Both the position numbers and the translations under genes were made by a program. Source: Flavobacteriales bacterium (GTDB lineage Bacteria; Bacteroidota; Bacteroidia; Flavobacteriales; UBA7312). Taken from it: a stretch of DNA of 64,000 nt. Within the stretch, counting starts at the first letter, position 1. The number at the start of each line of letters is the position of its first letter. The stretch is from NCBI GenBank assembly GCA_016779995.1, contig JADHMO010000004.1:62001-126000 (forward strand), given 5' to 3'. The notes beneath the pieces were generated by a model. The model was given only the letters and a program-made list of their open reading frames with translations. It searched no databases and was not told where the DNA came from. Positions 6,262 through 49,935 of the stretch are shown here, in pieces.

Positions 6262-6630
6262 ATGAAGATAAGTAGACTGCTGATTGTTATTATTACACTA
6301 TTTTCTATGTCATCGTGCTACGAAGAACCCTTGACTAAAGGTATTATTACCGTTTATGATTCGGAAGGAAATACCGTAAGTGGTGCAATCGTAAAACTAT
6401 ACCAAGAAGACATAGTTGGTGTAACTCAAACGAATGTTGTTAGCACTTTAGTATCTGACTTCAATGGACAAACAGAACATGTTCTTGAACTTGAAGCCTT
6501 AATGAATGTTGAAGCCTACACATTATCTGAGTCTGCGTCAGCTGACACCCTTCTGTATGGCACTACTGTTATACGTTTAATGCGAGGAAAAACAATTTAT
6601 AAAAACATAGAAATACTACCACTGAACTAG
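6262..6630 (+). CDS. Small lipoprotein with carboxypeptidase-regulatory-like fold
   Basis: A 122-residue predicted lipoprotein: a hydrophobic signal segment ends in a lipobox (FSMSSC, Cys at about residue 19). The mature part (GIITVYDSEGNTVSGAIVKLYQ) resembles the start of carboxypeptidase-regulatory-like/Ig-like beta domains, which are common in Bacteroidota surface proteins. No catalytic motif is visible and no specific function can be given. Its stop overlaps the stop of the convergent gene at 6627. It has its own promoter element at 6218-6225. Confidence 0.8.
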   Translation: MKISRLLIVIITLFSMSSCYEEPLTKGIITVYDSEGNTVSGAIVKLYQEDIVGVTQTNVVSTLVSDFNGQTEHVLELEALMNVEAYTLSESASADTLLYGTTVIRLMRGKTIYKNIEILPLN

Positions 6631-6953
6631 TTAAAGTATTCTATAATAGCCTCTTTTATCATTTCGTCTTGCTGTTTAGCATTCATACTTGGCAGCTTAT
6701 CTGTGGCTTTCCAATGAGGCCAGCCTTCTTCATCGTGTCCTGCGAATTCATAAATCCCCCACTGACTTAGCAAAGCGCAAACTGCGACATGTATAACGTC
6801 TAACTTTTGATTTTTAGTTAGCTTTTGATAGCCTTGACCCAATTCTTGTAAGCCAATAAGAAATAATATGGCCTGTAAATCTAAGCCCTCACCAAATCGA
6901 TGACTTAATTTTACCACTAAATCTTTCCAATTTTTATCTAAGCTATTTTCCAT
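6627..6953 (-). CDS. Conserved-looking hypothetical protein, cytoplasmic
   Basis: I do not recognise a named family. The 108 residues have no signal peptide or membrane segment, and look mostly helical (IQLVVKLSHRFGEGLDLQ-like N-terminal part is amphipathic) with a Trp-rich stretch WGIYEFAGHDEEGWPHW in the middle. The gene is real-looking because a TATTTTTG element on the minus strand (6958-6965) lies four bases before the ATG and the reading frame fills the space between cvpA and the lipoprotein. Only 28 bases separate it from the divergent cvpA. Confidence 0.75.
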   Translation of the reverse strand: MENSLDKNWKDLVVKLSHRFGEGLDLQAILFLIGLQELGQGYQKLTKNQKLDVIHVAVCALLSQWGIYEFAGHDEEGWPHWKATDKLPSMNAKQQDEMIKEAIIEYFN

Positions 6954-6957
6954 CGCA

Positions 6958-6965
6958 CAAAAATA
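6958..6965 (-). promoter_or_regulatory. -7 promoter element TATTTTTG of the 6627-6953 gene
   Basis: Exact TAnnTTTG match on the minus strand, four bases before the ATG at 6953, implying a leaderless message. It sits back to back with the plus-strand element at 6967-6974. Confidence 0.5.
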
Positions 6966-6966
6966 C

Positions 6967-6974
6967 TACTTTTG
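6967..6974 (+). promoter_or_regulatory. -7 promoter element TACTTTTG of cvpA
   Basis: Exact TAnnTTTG match seven bases before the cvpA ATG at 6982, implying a leaderless or nearly leaderless message. Confidence 0.5.
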
Positions 6975-6981
6975 AAGTCTT

Positions 6982-7530
6982 ATGAATTATTTAGATATCA
7001 TTTTAGCTGTTCCCTTATTATGGGGTTTGTACAAAGGAATTAGTAAGGGCATTGTTAAAGAATTAGCTACTTTAATAGCTTTAATAGCTGGTATTTATGG
7101 TGCTGTTCATTTTGCAGATAATATTCACCCTTATTTAAAAGAACAGTTTGCTATAGAATCTTCTTTCCTGCCAATAGTCTCTTTTGCTATCACTTTTATT
7201 GTTATTGTTCTGGCTGTAAAACTTGTAGGATTTATTATTGATAAAATTGTAAAAGCAGTTGCTTTAGGAATAATTAGTCGCTTATTAGGGGGTGTCTTCG
7301 GTGTATTGAAAACCGCATTTATACTTAGTGCCTTGCTACTCATTATCAATACCTTTGACTACTACCTAAAGCTGATTCCTGTAGAGCAAAAGAAACAATC
7401 TGTATTGTATAAGCCCATTTCCAATATGATTCCCTCTATTATGCCCAACGTGAAAGACGGCGACTCCTTAATTAAAGAAGCGGATAAGATATGGAAAGAT
7501 ACGGAAGAAAAAATTAATCTTGAGTTATAG
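6982..7530 (+). CDS. CvpA family inner-membrane protein
   Basis: The 182-residue protein has four hydrophobic spans (about residues 5-25, 28-45, 62-85 and 100-125) and the CvpA opening NYLDIILAVPLLWGLYKGISKGIVKELATL. CvpA-family proteins are required for colicin V production in E. coli and more generally affect envelope functions; the biochemical role is unsettled. The C-terminal ~60 residues are hydrophilic (KDGDSLIKEADKIWKD). The 3' end overlaps the convergent pgk gene by 17 bases. Confidence 0.88.
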   Translation: MNYLDIILAVPLLWGLYKGISKGIVKELATLIALIAGIYGAVHFADNIHPYLKEQFAIESSFLPIVSFAITFIVIVLAVKLVGFIIDKIVKAVALGIISRLLGGVFGVLKTAFILSALLLIINTFDYYLKLIPVEQKKQSVLYKPISNMIPSIMPNVKDGDSLIKEADKIWKDTEEKINLEL

Positions 7531-8704
7531 CTGCAATTCCCGGTAATGCTTTGCCCTCTAAATATTCAAGCATAGCTCCTCCGCCAGTAGAAACATAACT
7601 CACCTTGTCAGACAAATTATATTTGTTAATAGCTGCAACAGAATCTCCTCCTCCTACTAATGTAAAGGCTCCTTTTTGTGTGGCACTAACTAATGCATCG
7701 GCAATAGCTTTTGTCCCTTGAGAAAAGTTTTCCATCTCAAAAACACCCATTGGGCCATTCCATAGAACTGTGGCAGATTGCTCTATTACTTCAGTAAATT
7801 GTTGAGCCGTCTGATGACCTATATCTAAGCCCATAAAACCCTCTGGAACATTACCAACTAAAGAATATTCTTTATTAGCGTCATTATCAAATTTATCCGC
7901 ATTCATAGAGTCCGTAGGAATGCAAAGTCTAACGCCTTTTGATTTAGCGGTCTCAATAATTTCAAGAGCTAAATCTAATTTATCTTCTTCAACCAATGAA
8001 TTACCTACTTCTCCTCCCATAGCCTTGACAAAAGTATAAGTCATTCCTCCACCTATAATCAAGTTGTCGACTTCTTCAAGCATTCTTAGTATAATCGTAA
8101 TTTTAGATGAAACTTTTGCTCCACCCATTATGGCTGTAAACGGTTTTTTTGCTCCACCAACGACCTTATCAATGTTTTCTATTTCATTGGCCATAACATA
8201 GCCAAAGCATTTGTTTTGCTTAAAAAATTGAGCAATAATTGCTGTTGATGCATGGGCTCTATGAGCCGTTCCAAAAGCATCATTTACATAAACATCACCC
8301 AACTCTGAAAGTTGTTTAGCGAAGTCTATATCACCAGCTGTTTCTTCATTATGAAAACGTAAATTTTCAATTAACAATACCTCTCCACTTTTTAGAGATT
8401 TACTGGCTTTTGTTGCCTTGTCACCAACACATTGGTCAATGAATTTAACCTCTTGTGACAATAGGTTGCTTAAGTGTTCTACTAAATGTCGCATCGACAA
8501 ACTATCGTCTTGACCTTTTGGTCTGCCTCTGTGAGACATTAAAACAACAGAACCTCCCGAAGAAATAATTTTGTTTATAGTGGGTAAAGTTGCTCTCATT
8601 CTGGTGTCATCAGTGATGTTTAAATCTGAATCCATCGGCACATTGTAGTCTACCCTAATAAGAAAACGTTGGTTTTGAAAAGGAAAAGAATCTAGGTGTT
8701 TCAT
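7514..8704 (-). CDS. pgk: Phosphoglycerate kinase
   Basis: Pgk transfers a phosphate between 1,3-bisphosphoglycerate and ADP in glycolysis. The 396-residue product shows RVDYNVPMDSD, the basic-patch SHRGRPKG, NDAFGTAHRAHAS, the hinge MGGAKVSSK, LWNGPMGVFE and the nucleotide-site GGGDSVAAI near the C terminus. I place the start at the ATG at 8702-8704 because a -7 promoter element lies at 8720-8727; a TTG inside that element would otherwise give six extra residues. Length is normal. It converges on cvpA and is divergent from holB. Confidence 0.97.
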   Translation of the reverse strand: MKHLDSFPFQNQRFLIRVDYNVPMDSDLNITDDTRMRATLPTINKIISSGGSVVLMSHRGRPKGQDDSLSMRHLVEHLSNLLSQEVKFIDQCVGDKATKASKSLKSGEVLLIENLRFHNEETAGDIDFAKQLSELGDVYVNDAFGTAHRAHASTAIIAQFFKQNKCFGYVMANEIENIDKVVGGAKKPFTAIMGGAKVSSKITIILRMLEEVDNLIIGGGMTYTFVKAMGGEVGNSLVEEDKLDLALEIIETAKSKGVRLCIPTDSMNADKFDNDANKEYSLVGNVPEGFMGLDIGHQTAQQFTEVIEQSATVLWNGPMGVFEMENFSQGTKAIADALVSATQKGAFTLVGGGDSVAAINKYNLSDKVSYVSTGGGAMLEYLEGKALPGIAAITQD

Positions 8705-8719
8705 TTGTGAAAATTTAGG

Positions 8720-8727
8720 CAAATGTA
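8720..8727 (-). promoter_or_regulatory. -7 promoter element TACATTTG of pgk
   Basis: Exact TAnnTTTG match on the minus strand, 15 bases before the pgk ATG. Its position decides the start choice for pgk. Confidence 0.5.
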
Positions 8728-8763
8728 TATTTTCTTTAAGTAATCTAAAAAAGATTTATTCAT

Positions 8764-8771
8764 TACCTTTG
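8764..8771 (+). promoter_or_regulatory. -7 promoter element TACCTTTG of the holB operon
   Basis: Exact TAnnTTTG match 21 bases before the holB-like ATG at 8793. A purine-rich GAGGAG at 8772-8777 lies between them, which could serve as a ribosome site only if included in the short leader. Confidence 0.5.
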
Positions 8772-8792
8772 AGGAGTTAGAAAGACACAACT

Positions 8793-9944
8793 ATGCTTTT
8801 TAGAGATATTCCTTCCAACACTAGAGCAAAACAGCAATTACTTAAAGCTATCCAAAACGATAGATTAAGTCATGCCCATTTGTTTTTAGGTAATGATGGT
8901 TCTTCCAGCTTAGCAATGGCGTGGGCTTTTGCTCAATATTTGATGTGTGCTCAGCCAACAGAAGAAGATTCTTGCGGTCAATGCCCTTCCTGTCTTAAAA
9001 GTGCTAAACTAAGCCACCCAGACTTACACTGGGTATTTCCTGTTGTTACAGGTCGTGGAACTCATCCTACAAGCGATATGTTTCTTTCTGATTGGAGAGA
9101 ATTTTTAGAAAAAAATTCATTCCCTTCTGAAGAAGATTGGTATTCACACCTCGGCACAACCAATAAACAAGGCTTTATAAGTGTAAATGAAGCCAATGAG
9201 TTAAGTAAAAAAACAATCCTAAAACCTTATGAAGGTTCGTATAGAGTAGTCATTATTTGGCATAGTGAAAAAATGCACGGACCAACAGCAAATAAACTGT
9301 TAAAGTTACTCGAAGAACCACCACAAAAAACTATCTTCATACTACTAACAAGTCAATCTGAAAATTTACTAGCCACTATAGTTTCTAGGTTACAAAGCAT
9401 TAAAATAGAGCCAACAGATGAGTTTAGTCTTTCGACCTTTCTTCAAGATAAATATAACATTGATAAAGACCGAGCAGATGAAACAGCAAAACTTTCTGAA
9501 GGAAACATCGGTAAGTCCATTCATTTTTTAGTTGGCAATAATTTATTAGAGCAAAATACCCAAGAATTTCAAAATTGGATGAGAATGTGCTATCAAGCTA
9601 AGGTGGTTGATTTGGCTAATTGGGTAGATGTTGCTAATTCTTGGGGCAGAGAACAACAAAAGGGCTTTTTACAATATGCTCTACATATGGTTAGAGAAAG
9701 TTTGATTCAAAATTTTGGACACCATAACATCAAAAAAGTAAGACAAGAAGAAGCCATTTTTACCGAAAAGTTTGCCCCCTTTATTCATCAAAATAATGCT
9801 ATAGAAATTATTGAGGAATTGGAGCTCGCATATCAACACATTGCTAGAAATGGAAGTGCAAAAATCATTTTTATGGATTTGACACTAAAGATGATTGTAC
9901 TTCTTCACGTTAAAAGTATAAATTTGCAAACAACTACAAACTAA
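8793..9944 (+). CDS. holB: DNA polymerase III delta-prime subunit
   Basis: The delta-prime subunit is a fixed part of the clamp loader that places the sliding clamp on DNA. The 383 residues start with RLSHAHLFLGNDGSSSLAMA, the position of the AAA+ P-loop, which lacks the GKT residues as is normal for delta-prime. A Cys-rich zinc-binding segment follows (CSGQC-like pattern: MCAQPTEEDSCGQCPSC). Later motifs NKLLKLLEEPPQKTIFILLT and TIVSRLQSI (SRC-like sensor region) fit the family. It is the first gene of an operon with ricT, gldH and pbp1A, a gene order typical of Bacteroidota. Confidence 0.92.
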   Translation: MLFRDIPSNTRAKQQLLKAIQNDRLSHAHLFLGNDGSSSLAMAWAFAQYLMCAQPTEEDSCGQCPSCLKSAKLSHPDLHWVFPVVTGRGTHPTSDMFLSDWREFLEKNSFPSEEDWYSHLGTTNKQGFISVNEANELSKKTILKPYEGSYRVVIIWHSEKMHGPTANKLLKLLEEPPQKTIFILLTSQSENLLATIVSRLQSIKIEPTDEFSLSTFLQDKYNIDKDRADETAKLSEGNIGKSIHFLVGNNLLEQNTQEFQNWMRMCYQAKVVDLANWVDVANSWGREQQKGFLQYALHMVRESLIQNFGHHNIKKVRQEEAIFTEKFAPFIHQNNAIEIIEELELAYQHIARNGSAKIIFMDLTLKMIVLLHVKSINLQTTTN

Positions 9945-41484: not shown

Positions 41485-41922
41485 TTACTCCCTTAGATAA
41501 ACCACGGCGTCTTGTAAAATATAATTGCACTGATAAATATCGTCAGCATTAAGTTTAAGGGTTCCTTTTATAGTGGCTACTTCGTCCATTATAAAAACCT
41601 CCTTTGAGGATTTCATCTCTAACTCAACAATGGTTTCAGGTCCACCGACTCCACAGAAAAAACAAGAAGAAAATGGCCCTTTAGATAGGATATAGTAGTT
41701 TTGAGTGGGGTCTATCGCTAGAACAAAACCTCTTATCATCACTTCTTGGCCTGCCAACTCTCTAACGCTTGGACCAAAATGAGGATATAAAAAATATTCA
41801 TCAACTTCTTCTATATACAAATCTGTAAACTCTACATCAGCTAAGACGCTCCAGTCAATTTCTTTTTGTGCAAAACTGATTTTGGCAAGAAGAATAAAAA
41901 GAATAATTATTAGCCTATTCAT
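41485..41922 (-). CDS. DUF3299-like periplasmic protein
   Basis: The 145-residue protein has a signal peptide (cleaved near SFAQ) and the body of a DUF3299-like protein: LAGQEVMIRGFVLAID, then KGPFSSCFFCGVGGPETIVEL with Cys 87 and Cys 90, and VATIKGTLKLN. In proteobacteria such proteins are encoded with an FtsX-type permease and a LolD-like ATPase in zinc-responsive operons, and that is exactly the neighbourhood here: the gene overlaps the permease by eight bases. The Cys pair and context suggest metal handling; the family match is from memory of motifs, not a search. Confidence 0.72.
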   Translation of the reverse strand: MNRLIIILFILLAKISFAQKEIDWSVLADVEFTDLYIEEVDEYFLYPHFGPSVRELAGQEVMIRGFVLAIDPTQNYYILSKGPFSSCFFCGVGGPETIVELEMKSSKEVFIMDEVATIKGTLKLNADDIYQCNYILQDAVVYLRE

Positions 41923-43279
41923 TGGAAAGGATTTTGGGAATATTAATATTGTATGATAAAACCGTGGGTATTAGAGAAGCAACTACACCTATAAGTAAAG
42001 CAATAGGAAGTAGCCAAAGTTCTTCATTAAGCAAATTAAACTGAAAGGAGCTAAAGGTGTACTTATGTTCAGCGAATAAAGTTATTATGAGTAACGTTAT
42101 GCGGCTAATTAATAATCCTAGAACGGTTCCTATTACAGATAAAATTATTCCTTCTTGAAGTACCAATTGAACCAATTGCCATTTTGAAGCTCCATGTACA
42201 CGCATCAAAGCAAGTTCGTAACGCCTTTTTTTCAATGAATTGTATAAGCTAATAAATATACTTAGACCTGAAACTATTATTATAATAAAAGCTATGATGT
42301 TAATCGTTTGAACACCAAAACCAAGCAAATTAGTTAATCGACTTATTTCAAGGGCAGGTACTGCTGCTTGTAAATTAGTCGTCTCATTAATTTTTCGAGG
42401 CAACTGTATTAGTCCAATAGGGCTTTTAAATTTAACTAGCAAGGAGGTTATCATTGCGTCTTCTGGAACATTAGTAAGTTCTAATCCTACTACTGTTGAT
42501 TCTTCTACATGATGCTCATGGTCACAATTGTGATGCTCATGACTATGCTTATCGTCATGATGCTCGTGGTCACACTCTTGGTGCTCATCGTTATGATGGT
42601 CATGTTCGCAATTGTGATGCTCGTGGTCACACTCTTGGTGCTCATGACCTTGTTCTATAACTTCGTGATTATGAACTTGCCAAACGCTTTGAGTATTAGT
42701 CAATATAAGCTGATCAAGAATAGTGTATGAGGGATTAAAAATTCCTACAACCTCATAGGCATATTCATTATGAACATGACCTCCTTCAATCAGTCCGTGT
42801 GTGCCATAAAAAGTGTCCCCTATTTTTAATTGGTGAATTTTAGCTACCGTACTACCAAGGACAACCTCTAAACTTCGACTCCATAAACGGCCCTCATTCA
42901 AACTCATTTCATACAATTCAGGATATTGGTGTGTTGTTCCAACAATTCGAAATCCATTGTAGGAATCGCCATACGAAAGAGGAACCGTTAAATCAACTAA
43001 TGAGTTGTTGTCAATTTTAATAGCCTCCTTGTATGGAATATTGCCAGTTGGGTTATCAATGTGATAAATTGAAGAGAGTATGAGTTGTAAAGGGCTACCC
43101 TTTGAGCCAACAACCATATCAACACCTCTAAGATTGGCTTGTAGTTGTTGCTCAATTTGATTGTTTAACAAAAATAAAAGAGAAATAATACCAACGCCAA
43201 ACATCATTAACAACAAGCTAAGGGTGGTGTTTAATGGGCTGCTAATTAGGTTTTGCCAACTTAATCTACTGATGTTCAT
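41915..43279 (-). CDS. FtsX-like ABC permease with His/Cys-rich periplasmic loop
   Basis: The 454-residue protein has one N-terminal membrane span (about 20-38), a large MacB/FtsX-type periplasmic domain, and three C-terminal spans (about 305-325, 360-385 and 415-440), as in LolE/MacB-like proteins. Within the periplasmic domain, residues ~203-257 hold 21 His, 4 Cys and many Glu/Asp in units like HEHHNCEHDHHN, a likely zinc, nickel or copper buffer or sensor. It overlaps both the ATPase gene (four bases) and the DUF3299-like gene (eight bases). Transport of lipoproteins or metal-linked substrates is inferred from family and neighbours. Confidence 0.85.
   Translation of the reverse strand: MNISRLSWQNLISSPLNTTLSLLLMMFGVGIISLLFLLNNQIEQQLQANLRGVDMVVGSKGSPLQLILSSIYHIDNPTGNIPYKEAIKIDNNSLVDLTVPLSYGDSYNGFRIVGTTHQYPELYEMSLNEGRLWSRSLEVVLGSTVAKIHQLKIGDTFYGTHGLIEGGHVHNEYAYEVVGIFNPSYTILDQLILTNTQSVWQVHNHEVIEQGHEHQECDHEHHNCEHDHHNDEHQECDHEHHDDKHSHEHHNCDHEHHVEESTVVGLELTNVPEDAMITSLLVKFKSPIGLIQLPRKINETTNLQAAVPALEISRLTNLLGFGVQTINIIAFIIIIVSGLSIFISLYNSLKKRRYELALMRVHGASKWQLVQLVLQEGIILSVIGTVLGLLISRITLLIITLFAEHKYTFSSFQFNLLNEELWLLPIALLIGVVASLIPTVLSYNINIPKILSNE
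42509..42653 (-). repeat. Degenerate tandem repeat encoding the His-rich loop
   Basis: Within the permease gene, short units built on GATGCTCGTGGTCAC-type sequence repeat. A 30-base stretch occurs identically at 42559-42588 and 42616-42645, 57 bases apart. The repeat keeps the reading frame, so it can grow or shrink without breaking the protein. Confidence 0.8.
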
Positions 43280-43905
43280 AGCGTAATGGATTTATCAAAT
43301 TGGCTTTTTAATCTTTGGTCGTGCGTGATGATGATTAACTGAGCGTTTGTTGAGGCTGCTTGTTCTTTAAGTAAGCTTGTTATTTTTTTACAATTAACGT
43401 CATCTAAGCTTGATGTAGGCTCGTCTGCTAAAATCACGCTTGGGTTTTTAACTACCGCCAAAGCAATAGCTGCTCTTTGTTGCTCCCCTTGACTTAAATC
43501 ATTTGGTTTACTATTGATTTTATGTCCTAAGCCTACTTGTTCTAAAAGCTCAATAGCTCTTTTTTTGTCTTCTTTGTTTTTAGACAAATAAAGGGAAAGA
43601 AGAAGATTGTCTAAAATACTAATGTTTTTCACAAAGTGAGGGCTTTGAAAAACCATACCGATATGCTTACCCCTAAACTGATCTAACTCTTTTGATGGTA
43701 AATTGTGAAATTGGACTCCATTAAATTCTAATCGTCCTGAAGACGGCTTTAATAAACCTGCTAAAATTTGAATCAAGGTGGTTTTACCAACACCCGATTC
43801 ACCCAAAATTAACAACTCCTCTCCCTCTAAAAGTTGAATATCTGGAAAATAAAATTGATGCGTTCCGTCATATGAAAAATTTATTGATTGGGAGTGTAGC
43901 ATCAT
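43276..43905 (-). CDS. ABC transporter ATP-binding protein (LolD/MacB type)
   Basis: The 209-residue protein is a single ATPase domain: Walker A GESGVGKTTLIQ, Q-loop VFQSPHFV, signature LSQGEQQRAAIALA, Walker B VILADEPTSSLD and the switch His in IITHDQRL. This small type drives FtsX-like permeases that move substrates from the inner membrane or change the shape of a periplasmic domain. It overlaps the His-rich permease by four bases and is the first gene of the three-gene module. Two Met codons stand at the start; either is possible. Confidence 0.92.
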   Translation of the reverse strand: MMLHSQSINFSYDGTHQFYFPDIQLLEGEELLILGESGVGKTTLIQILAGLLKPSSGRLEFNGVQFHNLPSKELDQFRGKHIGMVFQSPHFVKNISILDNLLLSLYLSKNKEDKKRAIELLEQVGLGHKINSKPNDLSQGEQQRAAIALAVVKNPSVILADEPTSSLDDVNCKKITSLLKEQAASTNAQLIIITHDQRLKSQFDKSITL

Positions 43906-44068
43906 ATCTATTTAAATAGGTTGTGTGTTTTTAACAAGTTTACAAATGCAAATTTTATCTAATTGAACAATATATCAAAGTATATTAACTAAAAAATTGT
44001 ACGTATAGTATAGTAGTAAACGGAAATTATTTCCATTCTAAAACTTGGGTTTTACAATATTTTTTTAT

Positions 44069-44142: not shown

Positions 44143-44739
44143 ATGATTTCTAATTTTTCTACTGCCAAACATTTTAAACAAGCTGTTTTATTAATCCTTA
44201 CAATAGGATGTTTTTTGACACTTCAAAGTTTTACTATTGAAAAAGAAGATGTTAAAATTAAAGATAGTGCTTTGACTTGGGTGGGCAGTAAGGTTACGGG
44301 TTCTCATGAAGGAACTATTAACCTTAAGTCTGGATTTTTAACTCTTGATAATAACGACTTAGTAGGTGGAGAATTTGTTATTGATATGACAACTATTGTT
44401 TGTACTGATTTAAGTGGTAAAGGTAAAGCTAGTCTTGAAGGTCATCTTAGGTCAGATGATTTCTTTAGTGTTGATAAATTCCCTACTGCCAGTTTAACAA
44501 TTTTAAATGTCAAGAAAAAGAGCTTGGGACAATATCAAGTAGCTGCAAACATTACCATTAAAGGAATCACACAAGAAATAATGTTTGATGCTGAAATAAA
44601 AGAAAAAATAGCTAAAGCAAAACTTGTTCTTGATAGAACAGAGTTTGGAATAATCTACAAGTCTGGAAATTTTTTCGAAGAGTTAGCTGATAAAGCAATC
44701 TACGACGAATTCGAAATGTCAATAGAGTTGAAGTTTTAA
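44143..44739 (+). CDS. YceI family lipid-binding-like protein
   Basis: The 198-residue product has a signal peptide and the YceI fold, an eight-stranded lipocalin-like barrel that holds polyisoprenoid lipids in known members. Signs are LTWVGSKVTGSHEGTINLKSG near the N terminus of the mature part, GGEFVIDMTTIVCTDLSGKGKASLEGHL, DKFPTASLTI and GITQEIMFDAEI, the usual order of YceI strands. A periplasmic role in binding or carrying isoprenoid-like lipids is the family guess. It is a monocistronic gene with a strong promoter. Confidence 0.92.
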   Translation: MISNFSTAKHFKQAVLLILTIGCFLTLQSFTIEKEDVKIKDSALTWVGSKVTGSHEGTINLKSGFLTLDNNDLVGGEFVIDMTTIVCTDLSGKGKASLEGHLRSDDFFSVDKFPTASLTILNVKKKSLGQYQVAANITIKGITQEIMFDAEIKEKIAKAKLVLDRTEFGIIYKSGNFFEELADKAIYDEFEMSIELKF

Positions 44740-44897: not shown

Positions 44898-46274
44898 ATG
44901 AAAAAACTTTTACTATTTGGAGCTGTATTATTGTTTAGCTTAGATATAGTAGCTCAATCACTGGACAGAAAATGGGGGCTAGGATTTAAATTGGGGGCTG
45001 AACAATACGCCGGAGAACTTGGCAATGGCTTTGAGCCTTTCTCACAAGACAAATATTTTTTAAATGGCCTAACACTTTCTAGAAAGTTGAGCAATCGATT
45101 AGATTTATCATTTAGTGCTGTAAGGGGCGAGGGTTATACTTTTGACAGTCATCAAAAAAGCGATAAGTTTTTACTGAAAAAATTGAGTCTGTTAAACCTT
45201 AATGCAAAATATCATTTCTTCGATTATGACGAAACTATATGGAGACCTTTTGTGTTTGCTGGCTTTGGCTACCTAGCCTATGACGATAATAATTCAGATA
45301 AAATCTCTGAAAAGGTTCAATATCCTGATTTAGGATTTGGATTGTCAATCAAATTGGGGCCTATCGTAAGCCTAACGTTTGACGAAACGTTTTTATTTAT
45401 AGACTATGATGGCGCAAAAACAAGCAACGAAGACAATGAAATGTATCTACAACATGCTGTAGGGATTTCCTTTAATATCGGTCAAATGAAAGATAGTGAT
45501 AAAGATGGTATAAGTGATAAATATGATGATTGTCCGTTAGATTTTGGGGTTGAAAAATTTAACGGTTGTCCTGACTCTGATGGTGATGGTGTTAAAGATT
45601 CTGAAGATAATTGCCCACAAGAAAGTGGTGTAATTGCATTGAGTGGTTGCCCTGATAGTGACTCTGATGGTGTACCTGATAAAAACGATAAGTGTCCTAA
45701 TATTAAAGGCTCTAAATCACTAAGTGGCTGCCCTGATAGTGACTTTGATGGTGTCGCTGATTTAGACGACGATTGTCCTAATGAAAAAGGAAGTAAAGCA
45801 CTCAAGGGCTGTCCAGACTCAGATAATGACGGAATCATTGACAAATTGGATTTGTGTCCAAAAGTAAAAGGCACAAAGGCAAACAAAGGCTGTCCTGAAG
45901 AAGAGAAGAAAAAGGAAGTTATAACGGATAGCGAGCCTAAAGTCTCTTTATATACAGTATATTTTGAAAGTGCAAATGCCGATATTAGTAATGCTTCTAA
46001 AAATGTGTTAAATACTATTGTAAAGCTATTCAAGAGTGATCCTAATTATAAGTTAACTATTGAAGGTCACACTGACTCTGAAGGTAATGATAAATTAAAC
46101 ACTGAGCTTTCAAAAGAACGTGCTAAAATTGTAAAACAATACCTTGTTAAAAAAGGTATCGCTAATAGTCGTTTATCAACCAATGGATTTGGCGAACAAA
46201 AACCAATTGCGGATAATAAAACAGAAGAAGGAAAAGCTAAAAATAGAAGAGTTGAACTTTATATAAAAAAGTAA
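44898..46274 (+). CDS. OmpA-family outer-membrane protein with thrombospondin type 3 repeats
   Basis: The 458-residue protein has a signal peptide, an N-terminal beta barrel (about 20-195), four to five calcium-binding thrombospondin type 3 repeats (units like CPDSDGDGVKDSEDNCP, about 198-330) and a C-terminal OmpA/MotB peptidoglycan-binding domain with TIEGHTDSEGNDKLNTELS and RLSTNGFGEQKP. It should link the outer membrane to peptidoglycan. The calcium repeats act as a rigid spacer. It ends before a strong bidirectional terminator. Confidence 0.95.
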   Translation: MKKLLLFGAVLLFSLDIVAQSLDRKWGLGFKLGAEQYAGELGNGFEPFSQDKYFLNGLTLSRKLSNRLDLSFSAVRGEGYTFDSHQKSDKFLLKKLSLLNLNAKYHFFDYDETIWRPFVFAGFGYLAYDDNNSDKISEKVQYPDLGFGLSIKLGPIVSLTFDETFLFIDYDGAKTSNEDNEMYLQHAVGISFNIGQMKDSDKDGISDKYDDCPLDFGVEKFNGCPDSDGDGVKDSEDNCPQESGVIALSGCPDSDSDGVPDKNDKCPNIKGSKSLSGCPDSDFDGVADLDDDCPNEKGSKALKGCPDSDNDGIIDKLDLCPKVKGTKANKGCPEEEKKKEVITDSEPKVSLYTVYFESANADISNASKNVLNTIVKLFKSDPNYKLTIEGHTDSEGNDKLNTELSKERAKIVKQYLVKKGIANSRLSTNGFGEQKPIADNKTEEGKAKNRRVELYIKK

Positions 46275-48804: not shown

Positions 48805-49197
48805 TTAAAATACAAAATGTTCTTTAATCTGTTTATTATCTTCCTCAAACACAGTAAGAACGGACTGTGTTTTACGGATTGAACTTATATAATGGCTGAC
48901 CGTTTTTTCATCCACAGTATTGTGAAATAATATCCAATAGTCTACCTGCTTCTTTTTTGTTATAAGAAATCCATCTTGGCTTTTGTTAGCAAATAAATAA
49001 ATAGTATCTAAATCTAACTGGTGCTCATATTGTGAAAACTCCAAATCATCGCCTTTAATATAAGGTTTGGATTTTTTAAAATCGACGCTTAAGGATTTGT
49101 TAATTGTCCAAGCAAACCGAAAGTCTTTCAAATGACAGCTTATACCGAAAAGGGAGAAGCTAGTGTCTAATTCTATGCGTAATAACTGTTTTGCCAT
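48805..49197 (-). CDS. IPExxxVDY family protein
   Basis: This 130-residue cytoplasmic protein belongs by position and shape to the family between rnc and pyk in Bacteroidota. The family motif appears as ITKKKQVDYW, keeping the VDY part but having Thr-Lys in place of Pro-Glu. Another feature is SFSLFGISCHLKDFRFAWTIN at the N terminus, typical of the family. The function is unknown. Its proximity to rnc and pyk reflects old conserved order, not a proven shared role. Confidence 0.8.
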   Translation of the reverse strand: MAKQLLRIELDTSFSLFGISCHLKDFRFAWTINKSLSVDFKKSKPYIKGDDLEFSQYEHQLDLDTIYLFANKSQDGFLITKKKQVDYWILFHNTVDEKTVSHYISSIRKTQSVLTVFEEDNKQIKEHFVF

Positions 49198-49236
49198 TTA
49201 CATTCGCTAAAATAGTCTTTCTGTTTGACATTAATT

Positions 49237-49935
49237 TTATGTTTGAAGTAATTCTTTGAGGGCTCGTTGTGCAGCTAATTCTTCTGCTCTTTTGATAGAG
49301 GTTCCCACAGCGTCAGCATATTTCTTTTGACCTATCATAACCATAACTTCATAGGATTTTTCGTGGTCTTTTCCATGGGAAGAAACTAATTTGAATATAA
49401 CTTGTTTTTTTTGGGCCTGACCCCACTCTAAAAGTTTGCCTTTATGACTAGAAACTTCTTTCACTAGCTGATGAATGTCTAAGTGTGGTCGTATGAGTTT
49501 GTCTTCAATATAGTTGGAAGTGAATTGATAACCTTTATCTAGGTAAACTGCCCCTATCAAAGCTTCTAAAGCGTTACCAAATATGGAGCGATTAGAGTTT
49601 ACTTGGTGTTTTAATACGGTGTTAAGATTAATTTGAAGTGCTATGGTGTTCAGTGTCTTTCGGCTAACTATTTTGGAGCGTGTTTGGGTAAGAAACCCCT
49701 CGTTTTCATCAGGAAATTCTCGAAAAACAAAATCGGCAACGACTGAACCAAAAATAGCATCTCCCAAAAACTCTAATCTTTCGTTATGTACTATACGACC
49801 TCTTACAGATTTGTGGGTAAGGGCTTCTTGGTAAAGGTTAATGTCTTTGGGATAAAAACCTAAAATCTTGAATAACTGCTTTTCTTGTGGGGTTTTGGAA
49901 ATAAATGTTTGTTTGAAAAAACGAAACAAATCCAT
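49237..49935 (-). CDS. rnc: Ribonuclease III
   Basis: RNase III cuts double-stranded RNA in rRNA and mRNA maturation. The 232-residue protein has the signature NERLEFLGDAIFGSVVADF with the metal-binding Glu and Asp, LEALIGAVYLDKGY with the second acidic pair, and a C-terminal double-strand RNA-binding domain (DAVGTSIKRAEELAAQRALKEL). The ATG overlaps the fabF stop by one base. Length is normal. Confidence 0.96.
   Translation of the reverse strand: MDLFRFFKQTFISKTPQEKQLFKILGFYPKDINLYQEALTHKSVRGRIVHNERLEFLGDAIFGSVVADFVFREFPDENEGFLTQTRSKIVSRKTLNTIALQINLNTVLKHQVNSNRSIFGNALEALIGAVYLDKGYQFTSNYIEDKLIRPHLDIHQLVKEVSSHKGKLLEWGQAQKKQVIFKLVSSHGKDHEKSYEVMVMIGQKKYADAVGTSIKRAEELAAQRALKELLQT

Follow-up and report, generated by a model that had tools for sequence, protein, structure and literature searches.

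A putative ZrgA-less form of the Zrg zinc-starvation ABC module, with a histidine-rich permease loop, in a marine Flavobacteriales genome

The Zrg system, encoded by zrgABCDE in Vibrio and by PA4063-PA4066 in Pseudomonas, is one of the strongest responses to zinc starvation in some bacteria, and its function is disputed (PMC9820375, PMC11481552). Vibrio zrgABCDE is Zur-repressed and responds strongly to a lack of zinc: in Vibrio parahaemolyticus, zrgA, zrgB, zrgC and zrgE are upregulated 76- to 206-fold when zinc is limiting, and Zur represses zrgA (PMC9817125). Vibrio zrgA is required for low-zinc growth once znuA has been lost (PMC9817125, PMC9820375). Growth at low zinc is aided by Zrg operons, in which ZrgA is the proposed solute-binding protein (PMC9820375, PMC9817125). 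A 2024 study, in which cobalt accumulated in a PA4065 mutant, argued for PA4064-PA4065 as a pyochelin-cobalt exporter of MacB type (PMC11481552). Do Zrg systems import zinc, or do they export something? The literature is divided (PMC9820375 versus PMC11481552). Here we describe a module that, judged by its sequence, is the Bacteroidota form of this system; it lacks ZrgA and therefore isolates the core of ATPase, permease and OB-fold protein. The open-access full text that we searched yielded no paper on a Bacteroidota Zur regulon, on this module in Bacteroidota or on a link between an ABC system and alkaline phosphatase metallation, and the ZepA paper (PMC10957091) mentions no module of this type.

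The window, the whole stretch of 64,000 nucleotides that was analyzed (contig G000:C4, positions 62001-126000), comes from the 1.96-Mb, 35-contig assembly of a small marine Flavobacteriales genome. Its module consists of three genes on the minus strand: a LolD/ZrgC-type ABC ATPase (43276..43905, 209 aa), an FtsX/MacB-type permease (41915..43279, 454 aa), assigned by Pfam, a family HMM and fold matches to MacB/LolCDE, and a small exported, predicted OB-fold protein of diverged DUF3299/ZrgE type (41485..41922, 145 aa). A sequence-only reading of this DNA had described a LolD-type ATPase, an FtsX-like permease and a small exported CxxC protein joined by 4- and 8-base overlaps, and the reading frames bear this out: ATPase and permease share 4 bases, permease and small protein 8. 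The ATPase carries a Walker A motif (GESGVGKT), a signature (LSQGEQ) and a Walker B motif (VILADEP); of its two possible ATG codons, relatives use the second (43902). It is nearest to the LolD models of NCBIfam, but the equivalog cut-offs for LolCDE are not reached (LolD, 184 of 308 bits; lolCE, 33 of 362 bits).

Since dN/dS against the sister genome G003 is 0.03 to 0.09 for ATPase, permease and small protein (purifying selection), and since the order ATPase-permease-small protein is the same across close relatives that have the module, we conclude that the three frames are real, conserved genes. Module orthologues occur in 8 of 10 genomes of the family, our own included; the two genomes without them are 65% and 54% complete. 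By eye, a candidate promoter (43949..43979, minus strand; TTTG, 18 bp, TAAAATTTG) is conserved across four genomes in the genus; it resembles the Bacteroidota promoter consensus. The upstream neighbor is a divergent YceI gene (44143-44739), and two further genomes of the genus show the same divergent arrangement. Beyond it, at 44898-46274, a gene encodes an OmpA-family protein containing thrombospondin type 3 repeats. On the other strand, the repeats give rise to an open frame of 183 codons (45482-46033), which is probably spurious.

To which family does the permease belong? We built a family HMM from 91 homologues; it matched, over their full length, the permeases of ZrgA-bearing operons in Phaeobacter (252 bits), Sulfitobacter (239 bits) and Aeromonas (231 bits), whereas a LolC/E-type permease of our own genome scored only 48 bits. 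The operons of these three matches carry DUF2796/ZrgA and DUF3299 genes, and that of Phaeobacter also has a Fur-family gene. Hence, on the strength of these scores, the window permease almost certainly belongs to the Zrg (ZrgB) family. The earlier reading had seen no visible sign of MacB-like drug export. For the fold, the denial of a likeness to MacB was mistaken: the protein exceeds the Pfam cut-offs for MacB_PCD (PF12704, 42.4 bits against a cut-off of 27) and FtsX, and the best PDB fold matches of its AlphaFold model (pLDDT 86) are MacB, LolE and further permeases with four helices, with MacB on top.

The small protein has a signal peptide, with cleavage placed by eye between KISFA and Q, and a CFFC motif (C87-x-x-C90; 41653..41664, minus strand) whose two cysteines are invariant in 35 homologues. 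It had been called DUF3299-like. As a single sequence it scores 11.9 bits against Pfam DUF3299 (PF11736), below the gathering cut-off of 22; single-sequence Pfam and NCBIfam scans gave no match over cut-off, and a PDB sequence search gave no relevant match. At the level of profile and fold, however, the assignment held. A profile of 35 rows aligned to the DUF3299 profile in hhalign with a probability of 96% (E=2.4e-9), and the best PDB fold match of the AlphaFold model (pLDDT 91.5) was PA4066 (4HSP). Profile and predicted fold thus mark the small protein as a diverged DUF3299 homologue, in which the invariant CxxC stands where DUF3299 has C-x-H. It is closer still to the CPFC protein of the alkaline phosphatase clusters described below (hhalign E=4.7e-15).

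The permease loop that the sequence-only reading had singled out, with 21 His and 4 Cys in about 55 residues, corresponds by our count to residues 203-257 (42509..42673, minus strand). The 20 His in residues 204-258 would arise by chance with a probability of about 3e-19, given 2.3% His in the rest of the permease. In the window, the loop is encoded by diverged direct repeats, and AlphaFold assigns low confidence to residues 212-266, as expected if they are disordered. Across 91 homologues, the segment from H203 to I277 varies from 9 to 117 residues and from 0 to 31 His; its composition is 18% His and 34% Asp/Glu, against 2% His elsewhere. The sister permease L035, 95% identical, retains about half of the loop length and 6 of its His. 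A survey of the loop had been proposed, with homologues lacking it as evidence against a metal-linked transporter, and such homologues do exist: L038 and L040, from the same family, have no His-rich loop. Loop His content showed no significant link to the presence of zinc-gene neighbors (p=0.21).

Three histidines behave differently. H161 (42797..42799) and H203 (42671..42673, where the loop starts) are invariant in the 91 homologues, and H170 (42770..42772; all three codons on the minus strand) is 97% conserved; D75, D105 and D189 are conserved as well. The three histidines have counterparts in Zrg permeases, and H161 and H203 also align in permeases of Deinococcus and Alphaproteobacteria. 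From this conservation we infer that H161, H170 and H203 are better candidates than the loop for a functional metal site. Because the loop is hypervariable and missing in relatives while these histidines are essentially invariant, it is probably an accessory zinc-binding segment and not a metal gate. The His-rich loop is not the core of the machine; the conserved candidate metal ligands are these three histidines. The loop probably binds metal, presumably zinc, and is dispensable. The loop as an essential metal site was rejected, since relatives do without it. The three conserved His and the CxxC of the small protein are thereby singled out as functional candidates, and the natural variants with and without the loop provide a ready-made test of its function.

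Neighborhoods were compared in 80 loci, which were picked by similarity to the query and are not independent; Pfam and NCBIfam served to identify representatives of the neighbors. The permease has the small gene, or a relative, nearby in 70 of these loci. A Fur-family gene is a neighbor in 26, a CobW/ZigA gene in 22 and a MerC gene in 28, and at least one of the three is present in 34. The CobW-type GTPase representative scores 573 bits against the ZigA model, very close to the cut-off of 600, and the Fur representative matches the Zur model best, below threshold. Because order and strand vary between lineages, the surroundings are not one frozen synteny block. In order-level relatives, MerC is divergent from a run of Fur, ATPase, permease and small protein. 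In G005, of the same family, the genes for a TonB receptor, a Cys/His lipoprotein, the ATPase, the permease and the small protein follow one another and all point the same way; directly upstream of the three module genes in G008 are the lipoprotein gene and the end of the receptor gene. In G004, of the same genus, the module adjoins ZigA and MerC. In many loci (L045, L046, L048, L055 and others), membrane proteins of the MerC family, a name tied to mercury resistance, are found with a Zur-like box next to Zur, ZigA and the module, which suggests that the Bacteroidota MerC-family proteins belong to zinc homeostasis.

The promoters of the module, Fur/Zur, ZigA and MerC in relatives have in common a 7-1-7 palindrome, which at its best sites is TGCAACA-N-TGTTGCA. 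In 90 upstream sequences, YGCAACNNNGTTGCR occurs in 9 exact and 10 one-mismatch copies, compared to 0 and 0.18 in Markov simulations. Allowing at most one mismatch, we counted 61 sites in 1.0 Mb of loci, of which 46 belong to promoters of the module or of a Fur, CobW or MerC gene; each of eight control palindromes gave 1 to 5 sites. The Zur-like sites often come in tandem pairs about 38 bp apart. A 7-1-7 arrangement is one of the usual forms of the Zur box according to a review that does not mention Bacteroidota (PMC6103462), and we found no description of this operator in the open-access full text searched. TGCAACANTGTTGCA is a candidate zinc operator of Bacteroidota that the neighboring Fur-family protein may bind, and the box bears the name Zur by association.

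Unlike many relatives with the box upstream of the module, the window copy has none: in the 300 bp upstream of 43905, where the earlier reading had proposed to look for a Zur box, there are 0 sites within 3 mismatches. The other module copies in the genus also lack an upstream box, and the single Zur-like site in the whole window is at chance level. Apparently the operator was lost from the window copy or was never there. The same reading had set a lack of any response to metals against its own hypothesis; the Zur-like operators of the relatives speak for such a response.

Our own genome does carry a tandem pair of boxes, outside the window, at G000:C4:48807 and 48846. The pair sits between a Zur-like Fur gene (L126 8789-9253, plus strand; its protein at G000:C4 about 48866-49252) and a divergent TonB-dependent receptor (receptor side, 6334-8862, minus strand; G000:C4 about 46.3-49.3 kb), followed by a 91-aa Cys/His lipoprotein. 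Receptor and lipoprotein are orthologous to those upstream of the G005 module, and the locus likely serves zinc uptake across the outer membrane. Also outside the window, L126 10430-12127 (minus strand) looks by eye like a bacteriorhodopsin-type light-driven pump beside a Blh-like retinal-forming gene, which fits a surface-ocean bacterium. Scans of the genome found no ZnuA (PF01297), no ZnuB-type ABC-3 permease (PF00950), no CobW_C, no MerC and no ZrgA/DUF2796 (PF10986); the last was over cut-off in 0 of 198 Bacteroidota genomes. Two Fur-family genes and two ZIP transporters are present, and the latter offer zinc a possible route besides the module. The receptor-lipoprotein synteny in G005 and G008, and the Zur-like boxes that ZigA and MerC each carry in G004, indicate that the zinc tie holds in the nearest relatives. 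In this organism itself, with no Zur-like box at the window copy or at the other copies of the genus, zinc control is conjectural; zinc as the metal, its binding by the loop, and its direction and path are inferred.

Behind a gene for the zinc enzyme alkaline phosphatase (PhoA type) lies a related trio. Clusters of phosphatase, small CPFC protein, ATPase and FtsX-type permease lie on plasmids and chromids (L151-L155, L160, L167-L169) and were found in Paracoccus, Shinella, Rhizobium and Deinococcus. These Alphaproteobacteria and Deinococcus trios share with the window a homologous small CxxC protein, an ATPase and the same permease family, and in Paracoccus, Shinella and Rhizobium they have a His-rich loop at the same place. 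They differ in their neighbors, which are not Zur, ZigA, MerC or a TonB receptor, and their permeases score 145-200 bits by the family HMM, below the Zrg permeases. That the same core is encoded with PhoA suggests a role in loading periplasmic zinc enzymes. A further locus, on a plasmid of Ruegeria conchae (L159), has a MacA-like biotin/lipoyl-binding protein upstream, a His-rich loop, two DUF3299 proteins and no ZrgA; this mixed type could bear on the exporter hypothesis.

Could the module be an envelope housekeeping system, Lol-like or cell-wall related, whose loop is a neutral low-complexity expansion with no metal role? The loop is indeed repeat-borne and hypervariable, the ATPase is nearest to LolD models, and the window copy lacks an operator. 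However, of the 61 Zur-like sites 46 belong to the module and the zinc genes around it; ZigA, MerC and Fur recur beside it, and the loop is rich in His and acidic residues in many lineages, a composition that is not random. We regard this explanation as very improbable. A true importer, as proposed for ZrgABC, would carry zinc from periplasm to cytoplasm through the permease, with the loop and the small protein replacing ZrgA. In its favor, Zrg operons aid low-zinc growth, and ZrgA is the proposed solute-binding protein (PMC9820375, PMC9817125). The absence of ZnuABC from our genome points the same way, but the two ZIP proteins could perform inner-membrane zinc import. To our knowledge, no solved member of the MacB/LolE-type fold carries small ions inward. 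Hence, with a MacB/LolE-type permease of four TM helices, a channel-type importer is unlikely.

That same fold speaks for an exporter of a metallophore or of an excess metal complex, an idea put forward for PA4063-PA4066, pyochelin and cobalt; the cobalt build-up in the PA4065 mutant (PMC11481552) and the MacA-like protein upstream in the Ruegeria relative agree with it. But no MacA, TolC or metallophore gene lies beside the module in the window or recurs in the neighborhoods of relatives, and a drug context is likewise absent. Because no adaptor or TolC-type gene accompanies the module, and with the OB-fold CxxC partner and the alkaline phosphatase link left unexplained, export is quite improbable here. 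With importer and exporter both less likely, periplasmic zinc handling is favored, and the PhoA link in other phyla fits it. We therefore favor, at a probability of roughly 0.6, a ZrgA-less, Zrg-type zinc-starvation ABC module with periplasmic zinc hand-over as its preferred mechanism. A role in zinc starvation is very likely for the module in its lineage and likely for the window copy. The hand-over itself, preferred because of the MacB-type fold, is tentative.

In the zinc hand-over that we prefer, the ZrgC-like ATPase would drive the ZrgB-like, four-helix MacB-type permease, whose periplasmic domain would work with the small exported OB-fold CxxC protein (ZrgE/DUF3299-like). ATP hydrolysis would move that domain, as in MacB, LolCDE and FtsEX (mechanotransmission). 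Scarce zinc might be captured by the CxxC protein and the H161/H170/H203 site, aided by the loop, and passed between periplasmic carriers to downstream importers or zinc enzymes. The loop would be a zinc-collecting tether, playing in the permease a role like that of the His-rich part of ZrgA in Proteobacteria. A broader proposal, which we consider doubtful, is that a single ATP-driven periplasmic zinc-transfer (metallation) machine of permease, ATPase and OB-fold partner, acting by mechanotransmission and being neither importer nor exporter, serves three contexts: the Zrg operons, the Bacteroidota sets with Zur, ZigA, MerC or TonB receptor, and the PhoA sets of Alphaproteobacteria and Deinococcus. 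Its His-rich zinc antenna would act in trans (ZrgA) or in cis (the permease loop).

How does the module compare with known systems? Like the cluster A-I importer ZnuABC, it is very likely an ABC system of zinc starvation, but ZnuABC has a different permease family and ZnuA, and is absent from this genome. With MacB it has in common the permease fold, four TM helices and a periplasmic core domain; here the ATPase is a separate protein, without MacA/TolC partners or drug context. The sequence-only reading was right to draw a metal link, most probably to zinc, and to see a likeness to proteobacterial ATPase-permease-DUF3299 sets. The window module shares with Zrg an adjacent LolD-type ATPase (ZrgC), a ZrgB-type permease with the same conserved His, a diverged OB-fold partner related to DUF3299, a zinc-starvation context and, in relatives, a Fur/Zur neighbor or operator. 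In contrast, Zrg has the His-rich periplasmic zinc protein ZrgA (DUF2796), which the window module lacks; ZrgE has C-x-H where the small protein has CxxC and falls below the Pfam DUF3299 threshold; and the Zrg promoter is Zur-controlled, whereas the window copy has no Zur-like box and many relatives do. A His-rich loop such as that of the window permease is absent from the permeases of the three ZrgA-bearing plasmid examples (0 of 3), and most ZrgA-less proteobacterial permeases have one, which suggests that a system carries ZrgA or the loop and not both. Because Deinococcus, Catenovulum and Sinorhizobium have neither, and the sample is small and not independent, this stays a suggestion. What is new here is the combination of a Zrg-like core without a detected ZrgA, a diverged OB-fold partner and a permease that itself bears a His-rich segment.
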